In this document: one piece after another, positions 7,242-45,458 of the stretch
Position numbering within the stretch: the first letter of the stretch is position 1
Layout of the letters: every line of letters begins with the position of its first letter
Assembly: GCF_036347055.1 (NCBI RefSeq)
Contig: NZ_CP108882.1
Location: 2,741,001-2,805,000, forward strand
Source of the DNA: Streptomyces sp. NBC_00820
GTDB taxonomy: Bacteria; Actinomycetota; Actinomycetes; Streptomycetales; Streptomycetaceae
Reading direction: 5' to 3'
Length of the DNA stretch: 64,000 nucleotides
The notes under the pieces: model-generated
Told to the model about the DNA's origin: nothing
The model's input: only the letters and a program-made list of their open reading frames with translations
Databases searched by the model: none
Made by a program: the position numbers and the translations under genes

Positions 7242-7748
7242 TCAGTTGGCAGTTGTGCTGGACATGGGGAGTGGACGGTGGGGGTGGAACACTCCCGAGC
7301 GCCAGGCGCCTCCCTCGGGGGCGGTAAAGAGGAGGTCGTTCGGCGCCTTCCCCTGACAGCGCCGCTGGAAGAGCTGCACCTGGTCAGGGGTGAGCACGAG
7401 GGTTCGGCGCGACTTCTTCGTCCTGGGAGCGCCGAGGAACGTTCCACCGCCCTCGCCACGTCGCTTCCACGCTCGCTGGACGCGGAGAGTCGGCCGCTTC
7501 GACACGAGCGTCAGGTCGCGACGCTGAAGCGCTGTCGCCTCACCCCAGCGGAGTCCGGTGCTCACGAGGACGTCGATGATGTCCACAGCATCAGCGCGAA
7601 GGCACGACCGGAGAAGCGCGTACTCCTCGGGTTCGAGGAAGACCTCGTCGTCCTCGGTCTCGTTGCCCTTGGGGAGTCGGGTGTGTGCCCAGGGGTTCGA
7701 GTCTCGCAGCGGGTCGGAGACGGAGTGCTCACCGAGCCACGGCACCAT
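7242..7748 (-). pseudogene. int: Tyrosine recombinase (integrase) remnant with two internal deletions
   Basis: Compared with the related integrase at 44689-45280, this copy keeps the upstream promoter-like sequence. It has lost about the first 107 codons, so that it begins at the internal PWLGEHSVSD. It then lacks about 57 residues up to LRDSNPWAHTRLPKG, and continues into the catalytic domain: STGLRWGEATALQRRDL carries the first catalytic Arg region, followed by GAPRTKKSRRTLVL. It ends early without the HxxR and Tyr boxes. It is therefore inactive as a recombinase. It belongs to the site-specific integrase family of actinomycete integrative elements. Confidence 0.8.
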
Positions 7749-7845: not shown

Positions 7846-7878
7846 TTCTGCTGTGGTGGGGCGGGTGGGACTCGAACC
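7846..7878. repeat. attL-like copy of tRNA 3' part (33-bp direct repeat)
   Basis: This segment is identical to 45374-45406, which covers the acceptor and T-arm part of the CAU tRNA gene. At 7879 the match to the tRNA stops, so only a tRNA fragment remains. The preceding 90 bases also resemble the integrase leader at 45285-45373. This is what a tRNA-targeting integrative element leaves at its distal end. Confidence 0.8.
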
Positions 7879-8237
7879 TAATTCGGTGACGCGTCTCACC
7901 TGCGGCTTTACCGAGGGAACGGACATATCCACCCGTTTGACTCCTCCTCCGTCCGCCTGGATCCAGCTGAGACGGGATCCGTGCGGGGATCCCCGCACGA
8001 TGATCCGAGTAGCAAGCCACCGCTGGGAATGACGCAGACACACCAGGCCCACTCCCGGCGCCTCCACCCTAGCCACTCGGGGCATCAGCTTTCCGAAACC
8101 CGCTGGCCCACATTCCTGCACGACCACGCCGACTACGTTCCGTAATGGAGAACACGCGCCGCTGCTCGCCAGGCATAGAACGGACATCCCCTGCAGGCGG
8201 GGGGGTGCCTCTATGTCCTTCGTCAAGTCCGAGGTGG
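7879..8237. other. Gene-free stretch beside the IS110 element
   Basis: About 360 bases without a supportable gene. It contains GGATCCGTGCGGGGATCC-type short repeats near 7975-7990 and a hairpin-like CCCCTGCAGGCGGGGG near 8190-8207. The 3' boundary of the IS110 element is probably here, but the second IS110 copy lacks this end, so I cannot place it. Confidence 0.45.
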
Positions 8238-9446
8238 TCATGCGGTGACTGCCTCGGGCATGCGTGACTCGTAGAAGGCGCCGTCGCGGAGCATGGCGAA
8301 CAGGACGCTGATGCGGTGGCGGGCGAGGCGGAGGAGGGCCTGGGTGTGGGTTTTGCCGCGGGTCCGGCAGCGGTCGTAGTAGGTGCGGGAGACGGGATCG
8401 TGCAGGGAGGCGAACGCGGAGAGGAACATCGCGCGTTTGAGCTGCCGGTTCCCGCTTCTGGGTGCGTGCTCGCCGTGGATCGAGGTCCCGGACGACTTGG
8501 TCGCCGGTGCGAGGCCCGCGTAGGAGGCGAGGTGGGCGGCACTCGGGAAGGAGCTGCCGTCGCCGATGGTGACCAGGAGGACTGCGGCGGTCCTGACGCC
8601 GACGCCTGGCAGCGACGTCAGGACCTGGGAAAGAGGGTGGGCCTCCAGCAGTTCGTTGATCTGGGCTTCCAGGGCTCGGCGTTGTTCGTGGACGGCCGCG
8701 AGCGAGCGGGCCAGGGACGGGACCACGATGTCGAGGGTGCCGGTGCCCGGGACGACGACGGTCTGTTCGTCGAGCGCGTCGAAGACGTCGTCGATGAGCC
8801 GGGTGGCCATGCGTGGGGCCTTCGGGCGGATCAGTTCGACGAGTCTGCGGCGGCCGGCTTTCCGCAGGGTGGCCGGGGATCCGTAGCGTTCCAGTAGCCA
8901 GGTCACGGCCTGGTGGTCGAGGCGGGGGCCGAGAACACGCTCCAGGCTGGGGTGGAACTGGGTGAGCAGGCCCCGTATCCGGTTGGAGGTGCGGGTGGCC
9001 TCGGCGGCGAGGTCCTGGTCGAAGCCGACGAGGACGGTGAGTTCGGCGGTGATCTCGTCGGTGAGTTCCAGCGAGCGCAGGGTGTGGGGCATGGTGCGGG
9101 CGGCGTCCGCGATCACCGCGGCGTCCTTCGCGTCGGTCTTGGCCTCGCCCGGGTAGAGGTCGGCTATGCGGCGCATGGCGAGTCCGGGCAGGTAGGCGAC
9201 TTGGCAGCCCGCGTCCCGGGCCACCGTGAGCGGGAGGGCGCCGATCGAGGCGGGCTGGTCCACGACCACGAGGACGGTGCCGAACTTGTCGCGCAGCTTG
9301 TCCAGGACGGCCCGCAGCTTCGGTTCGCTGTTCGGCAGCGTCTTGTCGAAGACCTTCTTCCCGGCCGGGGTCAGCCCGTGCCCGTGATGCGTGCTCTTGC
9401 CGACGTCCAGACCGAGGAAGACGCCCACCCCGCTGATGTCGATCAT
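8238..9446 (-). CDS. IS110-family transposase
   Basis: A 402-residue DEDD-type transposase. The N-terminal RuvC-like fold shows [20 protein letters not shown] and [17 protein letters not shown]. The C-terminal Tnp20 part shows [30 protein letters not shown] and a conserved serine region. The ATG at 9446 is preferred over the in-frame upstream GTG at 9503 because the homologous remnant at 19546 begins at the same residue and a GGGGG tract precedes it. Length is normal, so it may be intact. IS110 elements are now known to be guided by a structured RNA from the noncoding end; here the conserved upstream non-coding block is 9447-9697. Confidence 0.88.
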
Positions 9447-9697
9447 CGTGCCCCCACTCGCTCGTTCCGTGCTGACCTGGGCGTCGGGGCCGTTCGCGCG
9501 CATCCACGTTATGCAGACCTGCCGCCCGCAGATGGCCGGGCATTGCGCCCGGCCGGGCGGTGGTCGGACCTCTCATCAGCGTCTCCGACGGCACCCCTCG
9601 GGCCCGGTGACACCACCCCCCAGGTCATGCCTTCGACAGGGGGACACAGTCATGCCGGGCCCGGAGGCCAGCGGCCCTCTTGCAGGACCGCGAAGAA
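9447..9697 (-). mobile_element. IS110 non-coding 5' end (conserved with 19282-19545)
   Basis: About 250 bases upstream of the transposase start are clearly similar to the block ahead of the second IS110 remnant, up to a shared CCCCCGTT at the outer end. In the IS110 family this position can encode the guide (bridge) RNA; that role is inferred from family knowledge and not visible directly. Confidence 0.6.
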
Positions 9698-10652: not shown

Positions 10653-11921
10653 CTACGTAGCTCCTTCCGTACCGGGGCCACCTGGACGCTCCGGCGACGG
10701 CATCCGGTACAGCAAGGGGAGGCAGGCCAGGAGCAAGAGGCCCGCCGCGGCCCAGGGGGCTCCGGGACCCACGTGCCCGGCCAGGACGCCCCCCAGTGCA
10801 GCGCCTACGGGCGTGGCCCCCCAGGCGGCCAGGCGGTATCCGCTGGTGACACGGCCCAGCATGTGCGGCGGGGCGAGCCGTTGCCGCAGCGAGACCGTGC
10901 AGACGTTCCACAGCACCACGGCGGCGCTGTTCACGGCCAGCATCAGAGCGACCAGCGGCCACCAGGGCACCACCGCGACGACCAGGTAGCTGAGCGCGGA
11001 TACGGTCACGGACACCACCAGGCTCCGTGCGGTGCCCAGCCGGCGTGCCGTGGGGACCGCCGCCCTGGCCCCGGTCAGGCTGCCGAGGGCCGCTGCCACC
11101 AGCATCAGGCCGTACCCCCAGGACGGCAGGTCGAGCCTGCCCTCCACGTACACCACAAGCACCGCGTAGACCGCCTGCTGGCCCACGCCGAGCACCGCGA
11201 CCACCACCATCAGACGGCGCAGGACCCGGTTTCCCGCGAGCATCTGCAGACCGACCCAGGTGCCACGCATCAGGCCCGCGAGACCACTTTCCGCCCGCGC
11301 GCCACCCTCCATCCGCCCGGCCGACGCGTGCGCGGCCAAGCCCCTGAGCAGCAGCGCCGATAAGAGGAACGTCACCGCGTCCACCGCGAACGGCCACGGC
11401 CGTCCGACCGACCACAGCGCCACCCCGAGCGGGGGTCCGAGAAATCCGGTCCCGATGATCTGTGCGGCGATGATCCGGGCGTTCGTCCGCTCCAGCTCCT
11501 GGTCCGCAGCCAGCCGCGGCACCACCGCCTGGGCCGCGCTGTCGAAGAACACCTCGGCGAGTCCGCACAGGAAGGCCGCCGGCACCAGCCACGCAACGGG
11601 CACCCGTCCCGTGGCCACACCCGCGCACAGCACGGCCAGCACGGCGCAGCGCGCCAGATCGGCGCCCACCAGGGAGCGGTGCGGCGGCGTGCGGTCCACG
11701 AGGGTACCGATGAGCGGCGCCAGCAACCAGGCCGCGCGGCTGGCGGCCGCGACCACGGAGACCCAGAACACGTCGTGCGTGACGACGGCGGCCAGCAGGG
11801 GCAACGCGGCGAGCCGCGCACCGTCCCCGACCGAACTGAGCGCGTTGGCGGTGACCAGCCGGCCCAGCGGGGTCGCACGGAGAGGAAGAAAGGTAACGGT
11901 GGACCGGGAGCCAACATTCAT
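10653..11921 (-). CDS. MFS transporter, probable RiPP exporter
   Basis: A 422-residue membrane protein with about 12 hydrophobic segments. It contains the MFS loop-2-like motif GTLVDRTPPHRSLVGADLAR after the second helix, and a second-half equivalent near RRLGTARSLV. The family (transmembrane secretion effector type) exports small molecules and antibiotics. The ATG at 11921 gives a start just before the conserved LRATPLGRLVTANALSSVGDG; no strong ribosome binding site is visible and longer in-frame starts exist upstream. It is divergent from the HExxH gene and separated from it by a 337-base regulatory region, so it most likely exports the product of the cluster or confers self-resistance. Confidence 0.78.
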   Translation of the reverse strand: MNVGSRSTVTFLPLRATPLGRLVTANALSSVGDGARLAALPLLAAVVTHDVFWVSVVAAASRAAWLLAPLIGTLVDRTPPHRSLVGADLARCAVLAVLCAGVATGRVPVAWLVPAAFLCGLAEVFFDSAAQAVVPRLAADQELERTNARIIAAQIIGTGFLGPPLGVALWSVGRPWPFAVDAVTFLLSALLLRGLAAHASAGRMEGGARAESGLAGLMRGTWVGLQMLAGNRVLRRLMVVVAVLGVGQQAVYAVLVVYVEGRLDLPSWGYGLMLVAAALGSLTGARAAVPTARRLGTARSLVVSVTVSALSYLVVAVVPWWPLVALMLAVNSAAVVLWNVCTVSLRQRLAPPHMLGRVTSGYRLAAWGATPVGAALGGVLAGHVGPGAPWAAAGLLLLACLPLLYRMPSPERPGGPGTEGAT

Positions 11922-12258
11922 GGGGCCCGCACGTTCCGCGTCAGCGGAACATGGAGGACACGATGGTCGGTTGTTTTCCTCGGGATACACCACACCAGGC
12001 CTCGGTACCCAGTGCCGGCTCCACAGCACCTGCGGAGAACGGACTTTAAGTTCTCTTTTCCGTGTCCCACGTTCACCGTGCACTCCATTCGCTCGAATGG
12101 TTGACATCCCGTCGTGGTCCATGGCACGTTCGATGGCACGCAAGCGACGCCGAAAGACGCCCGATCGCCTGTTCGTCACACCAATTCCGGCGCGATTCGA
12201 CCCCTGACCGGGCCGCAATTCTGGTCCACGGGGTCGGCGTCCGAGCAGGGACACCAGT
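11922..12258. promoter_or_regulatory. Divergent promoter region of the RiPP-like cluster
   Basis: This region separates the exporter from the HExxH gene. It contains a perfect 7-bp inverted repeat CCATTCG-CT-CGAATGG (12085-12100) abutting TTGACA (12101-12106), a good -35 match for rightward transcription. A 6-bp inverted repeat GAGAAC/GTTCTC with a 9-base loop lies at 12035-12055, followed by TTTT. No clear -10 box is seen at the right spacing. No regulator gene is encoded in the cluster, so the palindrome would bind a factor encoded elsewhere. Confidence 0.5.
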
Positions 12259-13326
12259 ATGCGAGAGCCCAAAATTGTGACGCTGGCTCGGCAGCCTGTC
12301 TTCGCTGACGCCGCCAGTATCCTCAACCGGTTATACGAGACGTACGACTTCCTCCTTGAGTGCGTCGTCCCCGACCTCCAGCCTGCCGCGTCGAACGGAC
12401 GCCGGATCGCACTCGGCACCGCCCTCGAACCCACCGTACGACACCGACTCGATCAGGCCGTGCGGAAGATCCGTGACGTTCCGGCCTGCCGGGAGGAGTT
12501 GGCCGGCCTCGTGAGCGAACTGCGTGACAGGCGCGAGGTCACGCTCGCCGCGGAGGCGGAACGAGCCGGAACACGAGACGTGTTGGTGGCGGTCGGCGAC
12601 CACGTGGACCTGCTCACTCGCCCGGACCTGCCAGCGCGCGCTCACCAGGACTTCACCGCGCTGTTCCGCGAGCACCTCAGCGCCGGTGAAGGCGCCGATC
12701 ACCTCGCTCTCCTCACCTCGGACCAGGCCGCGGTCGCCCGAGACGCCGTGGACCTGATGCGGGATACCGCGCCCGACCTGTGCGCAGGACTGTTCCAGCA
12801 CGCCCGCTACCTCGTCGCCGTCGACGGCCCCGACGCCTTCGACAGCGCCTCCACCTGGGAGATCCCCGGCGCCGCGTTCGTCGCGCTGCGCTGCATGCGC
12901 ACCCCAGAACGGCTGGCGGAGGCCATGGTGCACGAGTTCGTGCACCTGCGCTTGTACGACCTGCAGATGACGCGGTCGGTCTTCGCTCCCGACTACGACA
13001 CCCGCACGGCCCCCACGATCGCACCGGAGTGGCACCGGCACTCGACGGTGTCCCACTGGCCGGTCGACCGGGCACTTGCGGCCGCCCACGTCTACGTGCA
13101 CTTGGCCGCCTGGTTCGAGGAGCGTGCCCGCGCCTGCCCGGACCCGGAACTCGAGCGTTCCGCGCTGACGGCGGACCTCCGGGCGTCCAGTCTGCTCGAC
13201 AAGGTCGCCCAGTCGGCGGACACGTGTCTAGGTCCAGCCGGCCGAGATTTCCTGAGCTGGCTGGCGCAGGTGCACCAGGACAGAACGGCCCCCCGCCCGG
13301 CCACAGGCATGCCGGTGGCCTCGTAA
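12259..13326 (+). CDS. HExxH-motif peptide-modification protein
   Basis: A 355-residue soluble protein. HEFVH is at residues 225-229 in AMVHEFVHLRLYDLQ, and a possible third metal ligand lies in AAAHVYVHLAAWF (His277/His281). This layout matches the HExxH domain found in RiPP clusters, alone or fused to radical SAM enzymes of the FxsB type. Some of those domains are alpha-ketoglutarate-dependent peptide beta-hydroxylases rather than proteases. The N-terminal 200 residues are helical with no known domain. The ATG at 12259 has AGCAGGGA about 8 bases upstream. A 145-base gap separates it from the radical SAM gene in the same orientation. Hydroxylase or protease cannot be settled from sequence. 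Confidence 0.72.
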   Translation: MREPKIVTLARQPVFADAASILNRLYETYDFLLECVVPDLQPAASNGRRIALGTALEPTVRHRLDQAVRKIRDVPACREELAGLVSELRDRREVTLAAEAERAGTRDVLVAVGDHVDLLTRPDLPARAHQDFTALFREHLSAGEGADHLALLTSDQAAVARDAVDLMRDTAPDLCAGLFQHARYLVAVDGPDAFDSASTWEIPGAAFVALRCMRTPERLAEAMVHEFVHLRLYDLQMTRSVFAPDYDTRTAPTIAPEWHRHSTVSHWPVDRALAAAHVYVHLAAWFEERARACPDPELERSALTADLRASSLLDKVAQSADTCLGPAGRDFLSWLAQVHQDRTAPRPATGMPVAS

Positions 13327-13471
13327 TCCCCGCCGCGACGACAGCGGACCCGGACACTGCGGCCGCCCGTGCCCCGACGCATCCGGTTCCCGTTCACGGC
13401 CGCCCTGCGACCCCGCCGTTTCCCTCGAGTGCGCGGCACACCCGCCCCCGTGCCGACCAGGACGGAGACCC

Positions 13472-14512
13472 ATGGAACTCGTGCTCCACCAGCCACTCAA
13501 GAGCTGGCTGCAAGTTACCCAGTCGTGCAACCTCAAGTGCCGTCAGTGCTACGGGGACTGTTCCTCTCAGCCGCGGACCGGCGAACTCAGCCGCGACGAG
13601 TACTCCGCGCTCATCCGGGAGATGGCCGACTCCGGGCTCATCGAGGTCTTCGTCGAGGGCGGGGAGCCGCTCAACCGCCCCGACGTCCTTGAGGTGCTGA
13701 GCGAGCTGACCCCGCATGTGATGACCCGCGTCCGCACCAACGCCACCCTCTTGACCCCCGAGGTCGCCCGGCGGCTGAAGGAGATCGGTGTCGGCGAGGT
13801 GTACGTGGACGTCATGGGGGCAACGGCCGCTACCCACGACTGGCACGTCGACGTCGTAGGTAGCTTCGCCCGGACGATCGACGGACTGAAGAACGCCCAG
13901 GCCGCCGGGCTGCCCGTGGTCCTCCTGGTCATCATGACCCGGCGCAACGTCGGCGAACTGCAGCAGGTGCTCGACATGGCCGCCGAACTCGGCGTGCCGC
14001 GGGTCGGCGTGCTGCGGCTCTACCCCCTGGGACGGGCCCGCACCCATTGGAAGGAACTGGCGCTCCGCCTGCCCGACCAGATGGCCGCGCTGGACGCGCT
14101 GCGCGTTCCCGCATCGGTGCATCTGATGACCTCCTGGCATCCCAAAGACGGCAACTGCTGTTGGCAGAACGCCGGCGTCGATGCCACCGGCCGCTCCGTC
14201 GGCTGCGCCTACCTGCGGGACTACGCCGACTACGGCAACGTCCGCGAGATGAGCTTCCTGGAGACCTGGAACAACCCGATCTACGTGAACAACCGCTCCG
14301 GCCACGTGGACGGCGGCTGCGACGGCTGCGAGGAGACCCAGGGCTCCTCGGGCGGGTGCAGGTCCACGGCGTTCGCCTTCACCGGCCGCTGGGACGCCCC
14401 CGACCCCTTCTGCTCCGAGACCAACGGAGGCATCGATGTCTCACAGCTCCCCGATGACCTTGAGGAACGACGCGTCCGTCCTGCCATACCGGCGACGAGC
14501 CGACTGCTTTGA
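13472..14512 (+). CDS. Radical SAM/SPASM peptide maturase
   Basis: A 346-residue enzyme. The radical SAM cluster motif is C19-x3-C23-x2-C26 (CNLKCRQC), followed by the SAM-binding EGGEPLNRP segment. The C-terminal SPASM region has Cys at about 229-230, 245, 284, 287, 297 and 315, enough for auxiliary Fe-S clusters. This is the PqqE/anSME-type architecture that makes C-C, C-O or C-S links in ribosomal peptides. GGACGGAGA precedes the ATG. It overlaps the PqqD-like gene by 77 bases, and the candidate precursor follows directly, so it should act on that peptide. The chemistry (cyclophane, ether or sactionine) is unknown; the precursor lacks Cys, which argues against thioether formation. Confidence 0.85.
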   Translation: MELVLHQPLKSWLQVTQSCNLKCRQCYGDCSSQPRTGELSRDEYSALIREMADSGLIEVFVEGGEPLNRPDVLEVLSELTPHVMTRVRTNATLLTPEVARRLKEIGVGEVYVDVMGATAATHDWHVDVVGSFARTIDGLKNAQAAGLPVVLLVIMTRRNVGELQQVLDMAAELGVPRVGVLRLYPLGRARTHWKELALRLPDQMAALDALRVPASVHLMTSWHPKDGNCCWQNAGVDATGRSVGCAYLRDYADYGNVREMSFLETWNNPIYVNNRSGHVDGGCDGCEETQGSSGGCRSTAFAFTGRWDAPDPFCSETNGGIDVSQLPDDLEERRVRPAIPATSRLL

Positions 14513-14801
14513 GCAGAGTTCCTCAGCCCGGTTTCGCCCGATACCGGAGTGGAACTGCATGCTCGCCTACACCCCGCGCAAGCCCGCCAGCCACTACCTC
14601 AACCCGGTGGCTTGGGTGGTGATCGAGCTGTGCGACGGATCGTCCGGATCACAGATCTACGCCACGTTCGAGCAGCTCAACAAGGGCCGGATCGGTGAAA
14701 CGGAACTCAAGGAGGCGTTCGAGTCGGCCATGGCTCAGCTCGTCGACGGCGGGCTGGTGTCCGCCGAGGCAGCCGACTCGGCCCTGACGGGAAGGAGGTG
14801 A
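14436..14801 (+). CDS. PqqD-like RiPP recognition element protein
   Basis: A 121-residue protein. After a variable N-terminus comes the PqqD fold: WNCMLAYTPRKPASHYLNP, VAWVVIELCDGSSGSQIY, then a helical ELKEAFESAMAQLVDGGLV. Stand-alone PqqD proteins bind the leader of the precursor peptide and present it to the radical SAM enzyme. The start at 14436 is within the radical SAM gene and has GGAGGC 5 bases upstream, so translation is coupled. It ends 5 bases before the precursor start codon. The pairing with a SPASM enzyme and a short peptide gene is the diagnostic context. Confidence 0.78.
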   Translation: MSHSSPMTLRNDASVLPYRRRADCFEQSSSARFRPIPEWNCMLAYTPRKPASHYLNPVAWVVIELCDGSSGSQIYATFEQLNKGRIGETELKEAFESAMAQLVDGGLVSAEAADSALTGRR

Positions 14802-14806
14802 CAGTC

Positions 14807-14995
14807 ATGACTAGGAAGAAGACGGACCTTGAGCAGCTCATGGCCGCGGCCAGCGCGACCGGTGAGGGCCCTGCCGTGGAGGTGGTACAGCCCGAAGTAC
14901 GCACGGGTGCTCAGTACGCCCTGCTGCCGTCCATGAAGGCCAAGCTGCCGGACACGTCCGCGGCAACGCCGCAGACGGAGGCGGAAGGCGAGTAA
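14807..14995 (+). CDS. Candidate RiPP precursor peptide (62 aa)
   Basis: A short gene with a near-perfect AAGGAGG 8 bases ahead of the ATG at 14807, placed between the PqqD-like gene and a cobalamin radical SAM gene. The first 30 residues look like a leader: charged and helical (MTRKKTDLEQLMAAAS, then acidic). A more hydrophobic stretch, GAQYALLPSMKAKLPDT, follows, and then an acidic tail ending EAEGE. There is no Cys, Trp or His and a single Tyr, so Tyr, Leu, Pro and Lys are the likely modification sites. It resembles no precursor family I know. The core is probably internal, requiring removal of both ends or modification within the chain. Confidence 0.65.
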   Translation: MTRKKTDLEQLMAAASATGEGPAVEVVQPEVRTGAQYALLPSMKAKLPDTSAATPQTEAEGE

Positions 14996-15024
14996 CCGCG
15001 TCGTCTACCGGCGTCGCGCCGGTC

Positions 15025-15051
15025 GGCATCCGGGCACGGGTCCCGGATGCC
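15025..15051 (+). terminator. Hairpin after the precursor gene
   Basis: GGCATCCGGG (15025-15034) pairs perfectly with CCCGGATGCC (15042-15051) across a 7-base loop, with no U tract. Placed 30 bases after the precursor stop, it could act as an attenuator or mRNA stabiliser that makes the precursor more abundant than the downstream enzymes. Confidence 0.6.
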
Positions 15052-15080
15052 GGCTGGCCCCGAAGACCGATGGGGAGAAG

Positions 15081-17441
15081 ATGGGCAAGAAGACCGTCCT
15101 GGTGAACCCGCCCCTGTGGAACGCATACGCGCCGCACCTGGCGGTGCCCCTGCTCCTCGGTGACCTGCGAGCCCGCAGGTACGAGGCCGCCGCCTACGAC
15201 CTGAGCATCGAGTGCGTCGACTGGATGTTGTCCGAGGCCACCCTTGCACGGCTGCGCGACAAGGCGCACCGGCGCCGGGCGGTCGGCCTGCGTGACGAAT
15301 GGGCGCGCCAGCGCGCGCTCCTAGTCGCCCCCGCCGCGATCGCCGGCGTCGAAGAGGCCAAGGCGCGCCTGAAGTCACTGCCGACCTTGCACGAACCGGA
15401 CGCCTTCCACCGAGCCCGACACACCCTGCGCGACGCGCTGTGGCTCATCTCCGGCGCCTTCCCCAACTGCGAGTTCGACCTGGTGTCCAACACCTCGGCG
15501 TACTCAGCCGAATCGACAGCGCAGGTGCTCGCGGCGACGGAGGATCCGGATGGCAACCCCTACTGCTGGGCCTTCGAGCGCATGCTCGACCGCAACCTCT
15601 TCCTCGATCCGGAGGTCGGTGTCGTCGGGCTGAGCATGTCCGCCGACACCCAGTTGATCGCCGGCGTCACGTTCCTGCGGATGCTGCGGGAGGTCCGGCC
15701 GGACGTGCATGTCGTCCTGGGCGGCAACTACGCGACCCGGCTGGTGGACCGGTGGCAGCGCCGCCACCCACTGTTCGACTACGTCGATACGGTCGTGACG
15801 GGAGAGGGCGAGGGAGCGCTCGCCGCAGTCGTGGACGCTCTGGACGCGCCCGCCGAGGGCGGGGGCGACTTCCGCGAGAAGATTCCCGGCGCCGTCTGGG
15901 ACGACCACGGCATCCTGCTGCGCGCCCCCCGGCAGAGCGCCGACATCAGCACCACCGCCACGCCCGCCTATACCGACCTGCCCCTGGACAAGTACCTCGC
16001 GCCCGGTCCGATCCTGCCCGTCTACGCCTCCCGCAGTTGCCCTTGGGACTGCGCGTTCTGCTCGATCCCCTTCGCCAGCAACTCCTTCCGGCAACGCCCC
16101 GCGGAAGCGGTGGTGGACGAGATCGGCCAGCTGCGTGCGGACGTTGGATCCCCGTACTTCATGTTCGTTGACGAGATCATGAGTCTGCGTACGCTGCGCA
16201 ATGTCGCCGAGGCGCTGGTGCGGACGTCGGCCGGCGTGCGCTGGTACGGCGAGACCCGGTTCGCACGCGGCCTCGATCAGGAACTGGCCGAACTACTGCA
16301 CGCCTCCGGGTGCCGCCGGATGAACTTCGGCCTCGAGTCGGCCAGCCAGCGCGTCCTCGACCTCATGCGCAAAGGCACCAGGATCGACGACGCCTGTGCG
16401 AACATCGAGGACATGCTCTCCGCGGGCGTGCCCCTGCACCTCTTCGTCATCCACGGTTTCCCCGGGGAGACCGAGCAGGAAGCGGCGCGGACCGTGGCGT
16501 TTGCGGAGGCGGTACGGCGCCTGTCCGTGCACACCTACGGGGTCGCGCACACCACCTGGGGCGGCTCACCGTTCGTGCTCGACGTGCACTCACCGGTCGG
16601 CACGCGGCCCGATGCCTTCGGTGTCCGCATCGCGTCCCCGGCGCCCGGGGACGACCTGAGCCTGCGGCGGGACTACACGGTCGGCTCGGGCATGTCCCAG
16701 CAGGACAGCGTGCGGATCGCCGACACGTCGGCGGACTCCGTCAGCGACACAAACGTCTGGTTCCGGGCCGCCCGCGACCCGCTGGCCCGGGAGATCGAGG
16801 AGTTCACGTTCCTGCGGGCCTGTGTGGGAGCACCTCTGCCCGAGACCCCCGCAGTGCCCCTTTTCGACTGGCCACCGCCGGATCCCGAGGCTCGGCTCAC
16901 CCTCGACCCGGACATGACCTACTGCCGGGTTCCCTGGCCGGCCACCGAGACGGACACCGGCCCCGCAACCGCGCTCTACCATCCGCGGCACGACCGTTTC
17001 CTGCAGCTCAACGCGCGGGACGCGGACTGGCGGGAGCTGGACGGCTCGACATGGCGCGACCTGGAGACCTGGCTGACCGAGCACGAGTGCCACTACCTGG
17101 GCGCCAGCCCCGTCGCCACGGCGGCGCTGCTCGTGCGGCACGGATTCCTGGCGCCCTCGCGGCGAGGGGCCGAGCCGATCCCCGGCCGGCTCCGACCCGA
17201 GATCGGTATCGCGGTGGAGAGTCGCGCCGGCATCCACTGCCTCACCAACCCGATCACGGGGGTAACGGTCCGGCTGCGCGACCCGGCCATCGGGACGTGG
17301 GAACGATGGACGAACGGCGAGGAACCCACGTCGAACCCGGCCGCCACCGATGCCCTGGTGCGGTTCGGGTTCCTGTACCGCGGCCCGGCCGGGGGCCGGC
17401 CGTCGCAGCCAGCGTACGTACGACAAGGTCAGGTGATGTGA
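15081..17441 (+). CDS. Cobalamin-binding radical SAM peptide-modifying enzyme
   Basis: A 786-residue protein. The N-terminal 270 residues form a B12-binding-like domain (VLVNPPLWN start, then VGVVGLSMSADTQLIAG and VVLGGNYATRL). The radical SAM core has C320-x3-C324-x2-C327 (CPWDCAFC), GLESASQRVLDLMRKG and HGFPGETEQEA. This order is typical of class B methylases and of RiPP maturation radical SAM proteins, which C-methylate or rearrange peptides. The last 220 residues (about 565-786) are a long extension of unknown fold containing several small helical units, possibly another peptide-binding module. GGGGAGA precedes the ATG. The gene stops 4 bases before the GNAT gene. Confidence 0.8.
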   Translation: MGKKTVLVNPPLWNAYAPHLAVPLLLGDLRARRYEAAAYDLSIECVDWMLSEATLARLRDKAHRRRAVGLRDEWARQRALLVAPAAIAGVEEAKARLKSLPTLHEPDAFHRARHTLRDALWLISGAFPNCEFDLVSNTSAYSAESTAQVLAATEDPDGNPYCWAFERMLDRNLFLDPEVGVVGLSMSADTQLIAGVTFLRMLREVRPDVHVVLGGNYATRLVDRWQRRHPLFDYVDTVVTGEGEGALAAVVDALDAPAEGGGDFREKIPGAVWDDHGILLRAPRQSADISTTATPAYTDLPLDKYLAPGPILPVYASRSCPWDCAFCSIPFASNSFRQRPAEAVVDEIGQLRADVGSPYFMFVDEIMSLRTLRNVAEALVRTSAGVRWYGETRFARGLDQELAELLHASGCRRMNFGLESASQRVLDLMRKGTRIDDACANIEDMLSAGVPLHLFVIHGFPGETEQEAARTVAFAEAVRRLSVHTYGVAHTTWGGSPFVLDVHSPVGTRPDAFGVRIASPAPGDDLSLRRDYTVGSGMSQQDSVRIADTSADSVSDTNVWFRAARDPLAREIEEFTFLRACVGAPLPETPAVPLFDWPPPDPEARLTLDPDMTYCRVPWPATETDTGPATALYHPRHDRFLQLNARDADWRELDGSTWRDLETWLTEHECHYLGASPVATAALLVRHGFLAPSRRGAEPIPGRLRPEIGIAVESRAGIHCLTNPITGVTVRLRDPAIGTWERWTNGEEPTSNPAATDALVRFGFLYRGPAGGRPSQPAYVRQGQVM

Positions 17442-17445
17442 ACCC

Positions 17446-18045
17446 ATGGAACCCTTCACGACGCGGATCCCGGGCGGGCCGACCGTCCGGCCGCTGCGGC
17501 CGGAGGACGAGTCCGCCGTCTCCCGGCTGCTGACGGACTGTGACGACTACTTCGTCGCCGCCACCGGCTCGACCGCCATGCCAGCGGATGTGCAGAGCCT
17601 GTACTACTCCCTGCCGGACGGTGTGGACTTCGACCGCAAACACCTCCTAGTACTAGTGCACGAGGACCGCCCGGTGGGTCTGGTCGACGCCGTGGAGGGC
17701 CACCCGGAGCCCGCCACCTGCTCGGTGGGGCTGTTCCTCGTCGAGCCGCACGCCCGGGGTAGGGGGCTCGGCCTCCGGGCGGCGCGACACCTGCTCCGGG
17801 AGGCCGCGGCCCGGGGAACGCGGCGCGTCACGGCCACCTGCCCGGAGGACTGGGCCCCGGGCATTGCATTCCTGCGGCGCCTGAGCTTCGACGTGCGCCC
17901 GCCCGAACCCGAACCGCTCGCCACGGTCGGTAAGCGGCGGCGGGGCCCCCAGGAGCGGCACCTGTGCACCGCTGTGCGGCTCCTCACCAAGGAGGACACC
18001 AGCGGTACCGCAGCGGCCGGCCGCGCCGGGGGCGGCACGTCATGA
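17446..18045 (+). CDS. GNAT-family N-acetyltransferase
   Basis: A 199-residue protein with the acetyl-CoA pyrophosphate-binding motif A: VEPHARGRGLGLRAARHLL, preceded by the beta-4 strand SVGLFLV. GNATs in peptide clusters acetylate the mature peptide's N-terminus or a Lys side chain, or detoxify the product. The candidate precursor has two Lys residues in its hydrophobic segment. It starts 4 bases after the radical SAM gene and its stop overlaps the P450 start (ATGA), so it belongs to the same operon. Confidence 0.78.
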   Translation: MEPFTTRIPGGPTVRPLRPEDESAVSRLLTDCDDYFVAATGSTAMPADVQSLYYSLPDGVDFDRKHLLVLVHEDRPVGLVDAVEGHPEPATCSVGLFLVEPHARGRGLGLRAARHLLREAAARGTRRVTATCPEDWAPGIAFLRRLSFDVRPPEPEPLATVGKRRRGPQERHLCTAVRLLTKEDTSGTAAAGRAGGGTS

Positions 18046-19280
18046 CGGCCGTACCGCCTCTCCTCGAGGCAGGCCCCGGCGGCGTCGAGGAGGACCTGGC
18101 CTCGGCGCACGCCCTGGTCAGCGCCTTCGACTCGGACCAGGGCGGACCAGGGGGCGGTGATCCGCACAGGGAGTTCGCCGCCCTGCGCCGAACGGGCGCG
18201 GTGCACCGGTCGACCCTGGAGCGGATCTTCACCGGAGCGGACCTCTCCGGCACCACAGGTACGCCGGTGTGGCACGTGGTGTCCTTCGCCGCGGCCGATC
18301 GGGTACTGCGCGACGAGCACACCTTCTCGTCCTCCGCCTACGCCGACAGCATGGGCCAGGTGGTCGGCCGGTCGTTCCTCGAGATTGACGGCGGCGAGCA
18401 CCGGGCCTGGCGGAACGTCCTGAACCGAGGATTCCATCGCCAGGCAGTCGCCAGCTGGCAGGCGCGGCTGCGCGCGGATGCGCTGTCCCGGCTGACGGCC
18501 ATGGCAGACCGCGGCGGCGGGGACCTGGTGGGCGAGGTCGCCTTCCCGGTGGCGCTGACGACCATCGCGGGCATCATCGGGTTCCCGCTCGGAACACGGA
18601 TCGGCACCCTGTACACCTGGGCGGTCGGCCTGCTCGACGACACCGACGGCAAGATCGCTACCGCGGTGGCGGAGTGGCTCGGGACACCGTCGACGTGGCC
18701 TGCGGACAGCGTCGTGGGGCGGCTGCTGCGCTGCGACGACCCGGCGATCGGCACGGGCTCCGCCCTCCTGCCCGCGGTCCGTCTGCTGCTCTCCACCGGC
18801 ACGGAACCGCCGTACCGCGCCCTTGCCACCCTGATGTACGCGGTCCTACACGATCCAGCGGTCCTGGAGGCCGTCCGCGTAGACGTATCCATCAGCCCGG
18901 CCCTGGTTCAGGAGTGTTGGCGGTGGGAGTGTCCGCTGACCTGGGTCCTGCGCCGGTGCACCACCGACACAGAACTGTGCGGCGTGCGGCTACGCGCGGG
19001 CGATTCGGTCTGCGTCAACCTGGCATCGGCCAACCGGGACGGGAGCCGGTGGCCCGACGCGGACCGCTTCAACCCCCACCGCCGGCCCCTGCCGCACTTG
19101 GCCGTGGGATCCGGCCCTCACCTCTGCCTCGGGCGGCACCTCGCCGCGCTCGAGGCCGAGGAGATCCTCGGCGGACTGCTCCAGGTGACCGCGGGCCGGC
19201 CGTCCGGCCCCGTCCTGGACACCGACGGCGTGAGCGGGCGCGGCTTCCGGTCACCGCTACGCCTCACCCTGCGGTTCTGA
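18042..19280 (+). CDS. Cytochrome P450 with atypical I-helix
   Basis: A 412-residue P450. The heme-binding region is LAVGSGPHLCLGRH with Cys362; the usual Phe of FxxGxHxC is Val. The ExxR pair is E291/R294 (ECWRW), and RGFRSPLRLTLRF closes the fold. The I-helix centre, normally AGxxTT, reads STGTEPP (251-257), so the conserved acid-alcohol pair needed for proton delivery in monooxygenation is disrupted by Pro-Pro. Such changes occur in P450s that do coupling or other non-hydroxylating chemistry. The start overlaps the GNAT stop. No ferredoxin is encoded nearby. As the last gene of the cluster it would tailor the peptide, for instance by Tyr cross-linking. Confidence 0.85.
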   Translation: MTAVPPLLEAGPGGVEEDLASAHALVSAFDSDQGGPGGGDPHREFAALRRTGAVHRSTLERIFTGADLSGTTGTPVWHVVSFAAADRVLRDEHTFSSSAYADSMGQVVGRSFLEIDGGEHRAWRNVLNRGFHRQAVASWQARLRADALSRLTAMADRGGGDLVGEVAFPVALTTIAGIIGFPLGTRIGTLYTWAVGLLDDTDGKIATAVAEWLGTPSTWPADSVVGRLLRCDDPAIGTGSALLPAVRLLLSTGTEPPYRALATLMYAVLHDPAVLEAVRVDVSISPALVQECWRWECPLTWVLRRCTTDTELCGVRLRAGDSVCVNLASANRDGSRWPDADRFNPHRRPLPHLAVGSGPHLCLGRHLAALEAEEILGGLLQVTAGRPSGPVLDTDGVSGRGFRSPLRLTLRF

Positions 19281-19281
19281 G

Positions 19282-19847
19282 CCCCCGTTCTTTTCGTGAT
19301 CCCGCAAGAGGGCCGCCGAACTCCGGTCCCAGCATGACTGTTGCCCCATCTCGAACGGATGACCTGGGGAGTGGTGTCACCGGGTCCGAGGGGTGCCGTT
19401 GAAGACCCTCATCAGAGGCTCGACCACCGCCCGGCCGGGCGCCATGCCCGGCATCCTGCGGGCAGCACGCCTGCATGACGTGGATGCGCGCGAACGGGCC
19501 CACCGCCGAGGCCGGCACCGGATCAAACCATGTGGGGAGGGCAGGGTGATCGATATCGGCGAGGTGGGCGGCTTCCTCAGCCTGGACGTCGGGAAGGGTA
19601 CGCATCACAGCCCCCGGCCTGCGCCCCCGCAGGGAAGAAGGTCTTCGACAAGCTGCGAACCAAGTTCGGCACCGTGCTGGTGGTCGTGGACCAGCCCACG
19701 TCCATCGGCGCCCTACCCCTCACCGTCGCCCGCGAGACAGACCGCCAGGTCGCGTACCTGCCCAGACTCGCCATGTGGCGGATCGCCGACCTCTACTCCA
19801 GCAAGGCCAAGACCGACGCCAAAAACACGGCCGTCATGTGGGGCCAT
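19282..19847 (+). pseudogene. Truncated IS110 copy (5' end and first ~100 codons, frameshifted)
   Basis: Bases 19282-19545 match the 5' non-coding end of the IS110 at 8238-9697. From 19546 the transposase N-terminus is readable (DIGEVGGFLSLDVGKGTHHS), then a frameshift and small deletion near 19620, then [20 protein letters not shown] and the AKTDAKNTAV segment, ending abruptly at about 19847. It lies in the opposite orientation to the first copy, so the two 5' ends face inward and enclose the RiPP-like cluster. Confidence 0.8.
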
Positions 19848-20667
19848 TGAAGGTCACCGTCGACAGATCCGCTCGCCCAGCGCCTCCAGGTCAACGGCGC
19901 GCACCGACCGCAGCCGGAAGTACCGGCGCTCCAAGTCAGCCGGTCCGGTGTCCAGGCCGGGGATTTGGCTCGTAGCGTGGGCCGAGCCGTCGGTAGCCGG
20001 ACGGCCAGAACGCTCCGTTCGATGTGGCACCGCTGTGGATTGAAGTGGCGGCCGCGGGGGCGCGTCCCGTTTCCATGGAGCTCGCCTCTCCGAGAGACGC
20101 ATTACTGAGCGTCACAGATTGGGCGCCCGACCTCAAGCCGAACCCTGAGGCATCTGCGCCCTCCACCTATACGAACCAGCTGCCGATCCCACTCCCCGTC
20201 AGCCACCCCATGCGGATGAACGGTCGGAATGCAGGCCCTGGGGTAGGCCCGGCGATGCCGTGGCGAGGTGCAGGCGATGCGTCCACTGGGGCAGGATGGA
20301 GGCCTCTGCCTGGTGTTTCCAGCGTGGTCTGGACTCACCCATGGCTACGGTGTGTGACCATCCAGCCAGCGGGTCACCCCCCTACCGCACCCCATACGCA
20401 CTACGGCTCCGAGAAGAAGGCAGAACGCAGGAGCTTGCGGGAGCGCTCCTCCCACACCAACCTGCTGCCCGCTCCCGTACGCGGCGGTCTCTGGAGCCAG
20501 TCCCGAGAAACAGGCCTCCATCGTCGCGGCAGCCGGAAGCTCTGGAGTCGCCGGATCGGACGATCATCGTTCGTTGTGGTTGACGGCTATGGCGCCGTCG
20601 GCCAAGAGGGAGCCCTTGATCAGGCCCGCGTTCTACCGATGGACCGGAGTGGCCTTATATTCCGTTG
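19848..20667. other. Gene-free stretch after the RiPP-like cluster
   Basis: About 820 bases without a supportable gene; open frames lack ribosome binding sites and family signals. It contains a likely -10 element TATATT (20656-20661) immediately before the DUF3800 gene, whose GTG would then be at or next to the transcription start (leaderless). Confidence 0.45.
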
Positions 20668-21441
20668 GTGTACTTCTGCTACGTCGATGACTCCGGCGCC
20701 GATCAAGGCCGCACCCTTACGGGCCTGCTGGTCCCCGAAGTGGGCTGGAGCGACCTGCTCCACCACTGGCTTGAGGGGCGCCGCAAGCTGGAGCAGACGT
20801 GGGGCGTCCTCAAGAACACGGAGCTGCACGCCGTCCATCTGGTGAAGGGGCGTGGACGACCGTGTGCCACCGAGGAGCAGAACAAGAACTTCAGCCGGCA
20901 GGCACGGATCGCTGCTCACGATTTGATGATCAAGCATCTTGCCAAGTGCGAGAGTGTTCGCGTCCTCACTGTTGCTGGGGGCACGACCCGGATAGCCGCG
21001 GTGTACCGGTTGTTCGTGAGCCACCTTGAGGCCTGGGCGCTGGAGCAGGACACTCGAGTGGTGATCATGTTCGATGGTCAGTCTGGTCCTGACGAGGCGG
21101 AAGAAATGGGGCAGGATGCGGCCCGGGAGGCCTGGAAGCAGGCCATTCGTGGCGCCAAGCCGTACCGCGAAGCTCACCGCAGCCTGCCGTTGGCCTCCCG
21201 CCGGATCCTTGAAGATCCGATCATGCAGGACAGCAGATACAGCCAGTTCATCCAGGCCGCCGACCTGGTTGGATATGCCGCGTTCCACCATCTGATGCTT
21301 GAGCGTCCTGAGGCGTGGCCCAAGCTGACCCCGATGGGTTTCATGTCGAAGGCGTACAAGCGACTCGCCCAGCACTGGCTTCCTGGGCACGGAACCGACG
21401 GCATCGTCTGGGTTGACTCGGACACCGACAGCTGGCACTGA
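20668..21441 (+). CDS. DUF3800 domain protein
   Basis: A 257-residue protein of the DUF3800 family. It has the N-terminal YVDDSG motif on the first strand of an RNase-H-like fold, a central strand VVIMFDGQSG and the C-terminal helix IQAADLVGYAAF, each carrying conserved acidic residues. The function of the family is not established; members are frequent in mobile elements and near defence genes and may be nucleases. The start is either GTG 20668 or TTG 20665. No Shine-Dalgarno is seen at proper spacing, but a -10-like TATATT lies 6 bases upstream, so a leaderless message is plausible. A strong terminator follows. Confidence 0.75.
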   Translation: MYFCYVDDSGADQGRTLTGLLVPEVGWSDLLHHWLEGRRKLEQTWGVLKNTELHAVHLVKGRGRPCATEEQNKNFSRQARIAAHDLMIKHLAKCESVRVLTVAGGTTRIAAVYRLFVSHLEAWALEQDTRVVIMFDGQSGPDEAEEMGQDAAREAWKQAIRGAKPYREAHRSLPLASRRILEDPIMQDSRYSQFIQAADLVGYAAFHHLMLERPEAWPKLTPMGFMSKAYKRLAQHWLPGHGTDGIVWVDSDTDSWH

Positions 21442-44682: not shown

Positions 44683-44687
44683 ACTAG
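43734..44687 (+). CDS. IS481-family transposase
   Basis: A 317-residue DDE transposase. The HTH region has WPLRRAAERFQVSPTTAQRW and LGLVPSTVHRILVRFGL. The core has HVDIKKLGNIPDGGG (first Asp), RVLTDNGACYKS (second Asp) and PQTNGKVERLNRTLLDEWAY (Glu), all in place. ATG 43734. The stop codon TAG is supplied by the duplicated target ACTAGG outside the element. Probably active by sequence. Confidence 0.88.
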   Translation: MPHRNAPLTETGRLRLARCVVDDGWPLRRAAERFQVSPTTAQRWAGRYRQLGEAGMSDRSSRPHHSPRRTPTRAERRIIKVRLTRRWGPARIAHLLGLVPSTVHRILVRFGLARLSHLDRATGRVIRRYERDRPGELVHVDIKKLGNIPDGGGHKALGRQAGRKTRSGAGYSYIHTAVDDHSRLAYSEIHTDEKKETATAFWTRAHAYFTGVGITVERVLTDNGACYKSYLWRETLTAAGITHKRTRPYRPQTNGKVERLNRTLLDEWAYAKPYHSEQERRDAFPRWLHSYNHHRGHTALAGKPPASRVPNLTGQYN

Positions 44688-44688
44688 G

Positions 44689-45280
44689 TGTCGTTGCCCT
44701 TGGGGAGACGGGTGTGTGCGCAAGGGTTCGAGTCTCGGAGCGAGGGCTCGGCGTTGACTGCCGACTGGAGGATGCTGAACAGGAGCCCGTGCAGGTTAGC
44801 GATGGTCTTGGCGGCATAGGGGCGCCGCACAGTGCCCGCGGGATGCAGGGGGCCGGGCCGACCGTGCTGGAGGTCAAGGATCCACTGACTGACGTGGTCT
44901 CGGGTGATCTTGTTTCCGAGGTCGGAGATGGAGTGCTCGCCGAACCACGGCTGCATGTGCCTATCGACGAATTTGCCGTAGTTGGCCCGAGTCTGGTCGG
45001 ATATATCCGTCAGCAGCCCTATGTAACTGTGGGCGTAGACCGGGAACATGAGCGAGTCCGGCACATCTGACTCTTCTGACTCGACGAACCCTCTGCCCTT
45101 GACCCAGCCCGGCGGCCATTGCTGTCCGTGACCGTTGACGAGGTCGCGGAAACGTTTCGCCTTGTCCTCGTCGTCGAAAGTCTCCTGCTCGCTGCGCCCC
45201 GTTCGAGTGCCGCCAGCTCGCCACGTCACCGTGTAGGAGACGTCCCCGGACTTCCGTCTGTAGGTCCTGATCCCAGCCAT
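44689..45280 (-). pseudogene. int: Integrase N-terminal part, cut by insertion sequences
   Basis: About 196 residues of a tyrosine recombinase from ATG 45280. It has an N-terminal AP2-like arm (RTYRRKSGDVSYTVTWRAGG), a SAM-like core-binding domain (MFPVYAHSYIGLLTDISDQT, ITRDHVSQWILDLQHG, TIANLHGLLFSILQSAV) and then LRDSNPCAHTRLPKGND, where the IS481/IS630 DNA begins. The catalytic domain is missing and does not resume on the far side of the insertions at 41061. The gene begins next to the tRNA att site, as expected for the int of a tRNA-targeted integrative element. Confidence 0.82.
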
Positions 45281-45373: not shown

Positions 45374-45406
45374 TTCTGCTGTGGTGGGGCGGGTGGGACT
45401 CGAACC
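45374..45406. repeat. attR / tRNA-side copy of the 33-bp direct repeat
   Basis: Identical to 7846-7878. It covers the 3' acceptor and part of the T arm of the tRNA gene at 45385-45458. Together the pair delimits an island of about 37.5 kb. Confidence 0.8.
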
Positions 45407-45458
45407 CACGGCCGACGGATTATGAGTCCGCTGCTCTAACCGGCTGAGCTACCGCCCC
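45385..45458 (-). tRNA. tRNA with CAU anticodon (elongator Met or Ile2)
   Basis: 74 nt on the minus strand. Acceptor GGGGCGG pairs with CCGCCCC and the discriminator is A. The D arm is GCTCAGCCGGTTAGAGC, the anticodon loop CTCATAA (anticodon CAT) and the T loop TTCGAGT. CCA is not encoded. Met elongator and lysidine-modified Ile2 tRNAs share this loop, and I cannot separate them by eye. It is the integration target of the island. Confidence 0.88.

Follow-up and report, generated by a model that had tools for sequence, protein, structure and literature searches.

The window analysed in this study, that is, the whole 64,000-nucleotide stretch of DNA from Streptomyces sp. NBC_00820 (the host genome is a single contig of 8.1 Mb), carries a compact block of eight genes at positions 10653-19280. 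Seven of the genes lie on the + strand, and the eighth, which encodes an MFS exporter, is divergent. The products of the seven are a homologue of the aKG-HExxH-type peptide beta-hydroxylases (hereafter, the HExxH protein), a radical SAM enzyme with a SPASM domain (the SPASM enzyme), a PqqD-like protein predicted to be a recognition element (RRE) for ribosomally synthesized and post-translationally modified peptides (RiPPs), a 62-residue peptide, a cobalamin-binding radical SAM enzyme (B12-rSAM), a GNAT acetyltransferase and a cytochrome P450. Judging from the sequence, this block is very probably a genuine RiPP biosynthetic cluster of an undescribed family, in which known kinds of enzymes are combined in a new way. 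The coordinates of its features are listed in Table 1. All eight genes lie where the initial annotation had placed them, and the motifs, overlaps and spacing that it had reported were borne out by family matches and by the sequence.

The genes are closely packed. An overlap of 77 bases joins the SPASM and PqqD-like genes, and one of 4 bases the GNAT and P450 genes; 5 bases separate the stop of the PqqD-like gene from the peptide gene, and 4 bases separate the stop of the B12-rSAM gene from the GNAT gene. Larger gaps, of 145 and 85 bases, lie 5' of the SPASM gene and of the B12-rSAM gene, respectively. An in-frame GTG is present at 14798, ahead of the ATG of the peptide. A long MFS open reading frame reaching 12434 was rejected as an over-extension, the ATG at 11921 being the likelier start as judged from the sequence.

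Table 1. Positions of the features of the cluster in the window, and of related features at other loci.
Feature	Location	Strand	Basis
MFS exporter, divergent	10653..11921	-	PF07690 91.2 bits
Divergent intergenic region, presumed promoters	11922..12258	.	Inferred from position between divergent genes
aKG-HExxH-type peptide beta-hydroxylase homologue	12259..13326	+	HEFVH at residue 225; TIGR04267
SPASM radical SAM enzyme	13472..14512	+	CxxxCxxC residues 19-26; PF04055, PF13186
PqqD-like RRE protein (predicted)	14436..14801	+	AlphaFold2 model and Foldseek
Precursor peptide, 62 residues, ATG start	14807..14995	+	36 homologous proteins
Conserved centre of the peptide, residues 22-45	14870..14941	+	Invariant residues, pN/pS
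Conserved stem-loop, peptide/B12-rSAM gap	15019..15057	+	Pairing kept, compensatory changes
Cobalamin-binding radical SAM enzyme (B12-rSAM)	15081..17441	+	CxxxCxxC residues 320-327; AlphaFold2, Foldseek
Two probable RRE repeats, B12-rSAM C-terminus	16887..17390	+	About residues 603-695 and 700-770
GNAT acetyltransferase	17446..18045	+	PF00583 40.2 bits
Cytochrome P450, GPHLCLG heme motif	18042..19280	+	PF00067 48.6 bits
Protein of about 200 residues behind SPASM/PqqD pair, VRT near N-terminus	L050 7286-7921
Protein of about 200 residues behind SPASM/PqqD pair, VRT near N-terminus	L015 11261-11833
Protein of about 200 residues behind SPASM/PqqD pair, VRT near N-terminus	L014 4053-4625
Protein of about 200 residues behind SPASM/PqqD pair, VRT near N-terminus	L016 1417-1989

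Homologues of the peptide were found as 15 proteins by a single-sequence search and as 36, these 15 included, by a profile search among 918 candidates; the alignment of the 36 with the window's own peptide comprised 37 sequences. As seen in this alignment, P22, P29, E30, R32, Q36 and Y37 are invariant (37/37), and V24, E25, S42 and M43 are kept in 36 of the 37. The peptide is under strong purifying selection. That is, among the peptides of the five full clusters described below (10 pairs), the uncorrected ratio of nonsynonymous to synonymous differences (pN/pS) was 0.033 at residues 19-45 and 0.475 outside this part. When whole genomes were searched for the peptide, each of 10 cluster-bearing genomes gave one strong match. 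The block has the short encoded precursor beside modifying enzymes by which a RiPP locus is defined. The conserved centre would have to hold both the recognition and the modification sites, with a putative split between leader and core near residue 29.

A search of genome contigs with the SPASM enzyme gave 9 loci. In four Streptomyces loci (L008, from S. flaveolus, and L009, L010 and L011) every gene was recovered in the same order as in the window, an order that the initial annotation had suggested seeking elsewhere; the MFS gene was decayed in L008. When the window's first 26 kb were compared with these four loci, nucleotide similarity was confined to positions 10694-19275, and the four loci were alike among themselves over that same unit only (E <= 1e-10). 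Since the similarity ends at the ends of the MFS and P450 genes, the edges of the conserved unit agree with those of the block. No flanks are common to the five full clusters.

The HExxH, SPASM, PqqD-like, peptide, B12-rSAM, GNAT and P450 genes are all present in the window and in L008-L011. Three further loci (L017, L018 and L020) have MFS and GNAT genes after the B12-rSAM gene and gave no P450 match; in L020 (genome G372) the B12-rSAM gene is split over two frames. Locus L019, whose peptide is that of Kitasatospora sp. GP82, holds the MFS, HExxH, SPASM, PqqD-like, peptide and B12-rSAM genes, and within its 16 kb neither a GNAT nor a P450 gene was matched. A metagenome-assembled genome of Pseudonocardiales has its copy divided between two contigs: L012 carries the HExxH and SPASM genes and the first part of the PqqD-like gene, and L039 the rest of that gene, the peptide gene and the B12-rSAM gene, inside which the contig stops. 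The HExxH, SPASM, PqqD-like and B12-rSAM genes were thus present at all 10 examined loci with a QYA-type peptide, the GNAT gene at 8 and the P450 gene at 5 of the 9 assessable loci, and an adjacent MFS gene at 9 of 10 (decayed in L008). From these counts and the partial cases, the core of the cluster consists of the HExxH protein, the SPASM enzyme, the RRE protein, the peptide and usually B12-rSAM, and the P450 and the GNAT vary. The four core enzymes without the peptide, which the initial annotation had named as an observation that would speak against its proposal, occurred at none of the loci examined.

These results also bear on whether the genes are neighbours by chance or belong to unrelated pathways. 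The block lies in an apparent integrated island with insertion sequence (IS) remnants, which speaks for a chance assembly, but the same core genes occur with the peptide at 10 of 10 loci while no flanks are shared among the five full clusters. We therefore consider such an explanation hardly credible.

The named relatives of the cluster genes are mostly from Streptomyces. Of 394 family genomes, 7 gave a B12-rSAM match (E <= 1e-60) and 6 a match to the SPASM enzyme (E <= 1e-75), the host's own genome being counted in both; of 396 phylum genomes, none but the host's matched the SPASM enzyme. These low counts indicate that the system is rare and patchy. In genomes G039 and G192 a relative of B12-rSAM lies in a different-looking cluster, with no match to the HExxH protein. 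Relatives of B12-rSAM with 41-43% identity occur at L021 and L022, in an apparent cluster of another kind that includes an rSAM_ocin_1-like second radical SAM protein; by eye, this cluster also holds a PhyH-like dioxygenase, HPr-kinase-like proteins, an ABC transporter and a peptidase.

The SPASM enzyme scored 75.8 bits for Radical_SAM (cut-off 29.5) and 24.5 bits for SPASM (cut-off 21.5), and its CxxxCxxC cysteines are invariant in the 9 rows of its alignment. It matched 75 NCBIfam models, and the 25 among the matches listed were all below cut-off. By these scores the enzyme is a distinct subfamily. Among PDB entries, PqqE comes closest to its profile. In the maturation of mycofactocin and PQQ, a PqqD-type chaperone works with a SPASM enzyme, and the peptide might likewise become a small redox cofactor or other intracellular factor rather than an exported specialised metabolite. 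Besides the likeness to PqqE, mycofactocin and heme maturase models match the enzyme, and the core is nearly unvarying between species, as would be expected of a cofactor. However, the equivalog cut-offs were missed by far (120.7 against 265 bits for mycofactocin and 105.1 against 381.35 bits for PqqE), the distribution is patchy as described above, and the adjacent exporter, GNAT and P450 suit an exported product. We regard a cofactor as quite improbable.

For the PqqD-like protein, an RRE fold is predicted. Its AlphaFold2 model was built from 10 sequences (pLDDT 78.1), and the top Foldseek matches in the PDB were TbiB1 with bound leader, PqqD and a lasso B1 protein (E 3.5e-3 to 1.7e-2, probability 1.00), none reaching E <= 0.001; ThcOx, a sactipeptide enzyme and SuiB followed. 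These top matches point to the precursor-recognition domain that, together with the encoded precursor, marks a RiPP system. PF05402 matched 8 of the 10 members of the PqqD-like alignment, the window's included (E <= 0.1; best 1.1e-6), and never reached E 0.001 in the host's own genome.

B12-rSAM scored 70.3 bits for Radical_SAM. Its AlphaFold2 model, built from 55 sequences (pLDDT 90.2, pTM 0.91), is closest by Foldseek to TsrM, MgmA, AprD4, OxsB and CysS. TsrM, MgmA and CysS are methyltransferases and AprD4 is a dehydratase; because the fold resembles TsrM and MgmA, B12-rSAM may well work like a C-methyltransferase. Membership of rSAM_ocin_1 (TIGR03975) failed, at 113.8 bits against a cut-off of 281.85. 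In the model, the last 180 residues form two strand/helix units of the RRE type, and these repeats match each other in hhalign (94%, E 9.3e-8). B12-rSAM is therefore likely to carry a tandem RRE at its C-terminus. PF05402 was detected at E <= 0.1 in 9 of the 55 B12-rSAM family members, the window's own not among them; it was found in P0139 at residues 699-762 and was not found in P0140-P0142. In a passage of PMC10635010, ApyD, the B12-rSAM of aminopyruvatide biosynthesis, is described as making beta-methyltyrosine.

The HExxH protein scored 51.7 bits for TIGR04267 (cut-off 40), which places it in the aKG-HExxH beta-hydroxylase family; its HExxH motif is kept in 10 of 10 orthologues, and in the PDB it matches ChlH (8s5f) weakly (E 0.0082). 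HExxH is a metalloprotease motif, and the block has no other protease, so that the protein might be a leader protease and not a hydroxylase. The TIGR04267 score above cut-off and ChlH as the best, though weak, PDB sequence match argue against this. Moreover, according to passages of PMC12636437, aKG-HExxH enzymes beta-hydroxylate Asp, His and Gln, and two of these enzymes also cleave the backbone oxidatively; both activities could therefore hold. A protease in place of a hydroxylase is, in our opinion, improbable.

The P450 heme motif GxHxCxG is kept in 5 of 5 sequences. A further question is whether only the core enzymes act on the peptide, with the GNAT, the P450 and the MFS protein serving self-resistance or separate chemistry and not tailoring. 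The absence of the P450 gene from 4 of 9 and of the GNAT gene from 1 of 9 assessable loci fits such a division, as does the position of the GNAT gene directly 3' of the MFS gene in L017, L018 and L020. On the other hand, the GNAT and P450 genes are tightly spaced with the B12-rSAM gene in the window and in L008-L011, and genome G042 also has GNAT- and P450-family genes 3' of its SPASM gene, though its P450 is merely 27% identical to the window's. We consider it unlikely, but worth keeping in mind, that these proteins serve self-resistance or separate chemistry. Acylation by a GNAT after leader removal is suggested in a passage of PMC12636437.

Genome G042 offers one exception to the usual gene set. 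At one of its contig ends (L029), which stops 31 bases ahead of the peptide start, the peptide gene is followed 118 bases on by a SPASM match and then by TP-methylase, GNAT and P450 genes. The TP-methylase gene (PF00590, 56.3 bits; 8045-8821) stands where the B12-rSAM gene would be. Another contig end (L051) holds an HExxH gene (34% identity), behind which a PqqD-like match (36%) extends as far as the contig does. No convincing B12-rSAM was found in the G042 genome: its best match (E 3.2e-4 over 200 residues) is probably another radical SAM enzyme. The G042 peptide, EPSLRTGSQVAFSPS, contains RTGSQVAF; that is, R, T, G and Q are kept and Y37 is lost. Because Y37 is lost where no convincing B12-rSAM is found, and Q36 is kept together with the HExxH protein, Y37 appears to pair with B12-rSAM and Q36 with the HExxH protein in Actinomycetota, on this one exception. 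The TP-methylase gene at L029, preceded as it is by a related peptide gene and a SPASM gene, might also mark a borosin-like methylating variant of this family.

In Alphaproteobacteria the SPASM and PqqD-like genes occur as a pair. Five proteobacterial loci (L013-L016 and L050) hold, of the cluster set, these two genes only in the stretches examined. On a plasmid of Microvirga ossetica, the SPASM (49%) and PqqD-like (35%) genes are followed by a 212-residue protein with the N-terminus TIVPEVRTHAAY; this stretch gave no match to the HExxH protein or B12-rSAM, and the protein lacks a Gln at the corresponding position. At three Elioraea loci, the pair precedes the gene for a 191-residue protein that contains VRTAGSIPP. 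The Microvirga and the three Elioraea proteins align with VRT in register, the BLAST match between the Microvirga and an Elioraea protein having an E value of just 0.13. Since VRT is aligned beside these pairs, it seems to accompany the SPASM/RRE pair, as either a recognition or a modification motif. The peptide model gave no match in two Elioraea genomes (G785 and G786) and only E 0.74 in a third (G784). In the Roseomonas genome it gave two weak places at E <= 1 (0.22 and 0.52), the 0.22 one outside L013; an open reading frame with HVRSG in L013 was rejected as a peptide gene, its likeness being by eye only and the better genome match lying elsewhere. Genes for subtilisin-type proteases lie close to the SPASM gene at L013, L015 and, by eye, L014. 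A cyclase gene is annotated beside the SPASM gene in L050, and cyclase-like genes were seen by eye in L013-L015.

The stem-loop between the peptide and B12-rSAM genes is kept in 5 of 5 full clusters, with 74 of 74 cells paired and compensatory changes at 3 of 16 pairs; in L018 the same gap also folds strongly (no shuffle control). No T-run accompanies the stem-loop, and we propose that it may act as an attenuator or RNA-stabilising element.

As for the genomic setting, a 33-base perfect direct repeat has one copy at 7846-7878 and another at 45374-45406, the latter of which overlaps a tRNA-Met gene (45382-45458) at its 3' end. Integrase-like fragments below the Pfam cut-off lie at 7242-7748 and 44684-45280, and the GC content is mostly lower between the repeats. 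The cluster is probably part of a tRNA island of 37.5 kb. An IS110 transposase gene lies 5' of the cluster (8238-9503), a degraded similar fragment is visible by eye on the 3' side (about 19530-19850), and a gene for a DUF3800 protein lies just 3' of the cluster (20665-21441).

The initial annotation regarded each part as a recognised RiPP element and supposed that all act on one peptide. The sequence shows a precursor peptide under selection, a dedicated RRE protein and enzymes that accompany the peptide; their joint action on it we retain as an inference, and its course may be pictured as follows. Residues about 23-28 (AVEVVQ) would dock as a strand onto the PqqD-like RRE, and this would present the peptide to the SPASM enzyme; B12-rSAM would rely on the RRE pair at its own C-terminus. 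The SPASM enzyme may act at or next to R32-[ST]33, a motif seen beside the SPASM genes that were looked at. For B12-rSAM the likeliest role would be C-methylation at Y37, and for the HExxH protein beta-hydroxylation near Q36. The P450 could add a further oxidation or a crosslink in the window's subfamily. Both the leader and the tail, which is acidic and variable, might be removed by host proteases or by oxidative cleavage of the HExxH type, after which the GNAT might acetylate the freed N-terminus, or else protect the producer. The MFS protein would export the product, and the hairpin 3' of the peptide gene may keep the peptide in excess over the enzymes.

Several points weigh against this picture. 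The cluster is known here from genes alone, and the block is without a protease gene. The homologues of the peptide were found through shared words and a profile, so that distant peptides are under-sampled and the search itself accounts for part of the invariance. The window's PqqD-like protein scores 15.0 bits for PqqD, under the cut-off of 23.4, and the B12-binding match in the window's B12-rSAM, at 25.7 bits, is under the cut-off of 32.1. Agreement of the C-terminal repeats with the PqqD-like profile is weak (42-53% singly, E 1.4e-4 and 2.7e-4; 19-27% for the whole C-terminus). Some copies need not work, because the MFS gene is decayed in L008 (7845-8608), where the enzyme genes read through, and the B12-rSAM gene is split in L020 (G372). 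The assignment of sites depends on a single actinobacterial exception spread over two contigs of inferred adjacency. In addition, a Tyr occupies the corresponding position of the Microvirga protein (PEVRTHAAY), where the stretch examined gave no B12-rSAM match; this counts against a strict Tyr rule.

A wider proposal may be put forward tentatively. The cluster could represent a new RiPP class, in which four metalloenzymes (the SPASM radical SAM enzyme, B12-rSAM with tandem RREs, an aKG-HExxH oxygenase and a P450) act on a near-invariant R-[ST]-x-x-Q-Y core and B12-rSAM is exchangeable for a TP-methylase. The SPASM/RRE pair in Alphaproteobacteria would then modify the N-terminus of a protein of about 200 residues with PEVRT/VRT, and natural-product biosynthesis and protein modification would share one recognition sequence. 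The assignment of enzymes to residues is directly testable through the exchange of B12-rSAM for a TP-methylase with loss of Tyr37, and through the VRT common to the proteobacterial proteins. With at least 10 sequenced copies, a near-invariant core and four types of metalloenzyme on one short peptide, the cluster is a compact and well-bounded target, from which a new product and new reactions can be expected, together with a B12-rSAM that carries an RRE pair of its own.

In open-licence PubMed Central (PMC) papers this enzyme combination was not found as a described class, and a search for the peptide stretches AQYALLPS, SQYALLPS, AQYALMPS and EVRTGAQY gave none; within these papers, the literature fits the initial statement that no described class has all the parts. 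Several known systems share some of them. According to the relevant passage of PMC12636437, which cites Morishita et al. 2024, the fused ChlBH protein likewise pairs a radical SAM enzyme with an aKG-HExxH enzyme on a RiPP precursor. In the window's cluster the two are separate genes, and B12-rSAM, the GNAT and the P450 are present in addition, a distinction drawn by genes; membership was set aside on the defining model or genes. The biphenomycin clusters bip, pbs and bpm, as they appear in parts of PMC12707348 and PMC12257519, share a B12-rSAM, an RRE protein, an aKG-HExxH hydroxylase (BpmH) and, in pbs, an MFS protein. The window's cluster has instead the SPASM enzyme, the GNAT and the P450; its peptide lacks the FHAFRF motif, and among the matches listed for the eight cluster proteins there was neither an MNIO nor an arginase. 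It was therefore not assigned to the biphenomycins. The aminopyruvatide cluster apy, in the passage of PMC10635010 that describes it, resembles the window's cluster in having a B12-rSAM (beta-methyltyrosine) and a P450 (Tyr-Tyr crosslink), but membership was rejected at 87.7 of 750 bits for ApyD and 30.8 of 525 bits for ApyO, with no MNIO among the matches listed. The pfl/pos clusters, in the part of PMC12636437 concerned with them, also combine an HExxH enzyme with a GNAT, and PflC hydroxylates Gln and cleaves the backbone; they differ in their MNIO-nitroreductase and nitrile-hydratase-type leader, whereas the window's cluster has two radical SAM enzymes. Finally, membership of the mycofactocin (MftC) and PQQ (PqqE) systems was rejected at the scores given above, which lie below the equivalog cut-offs, and in contrast to both systems the window's cluster has an exporter and tailoring enzymes.

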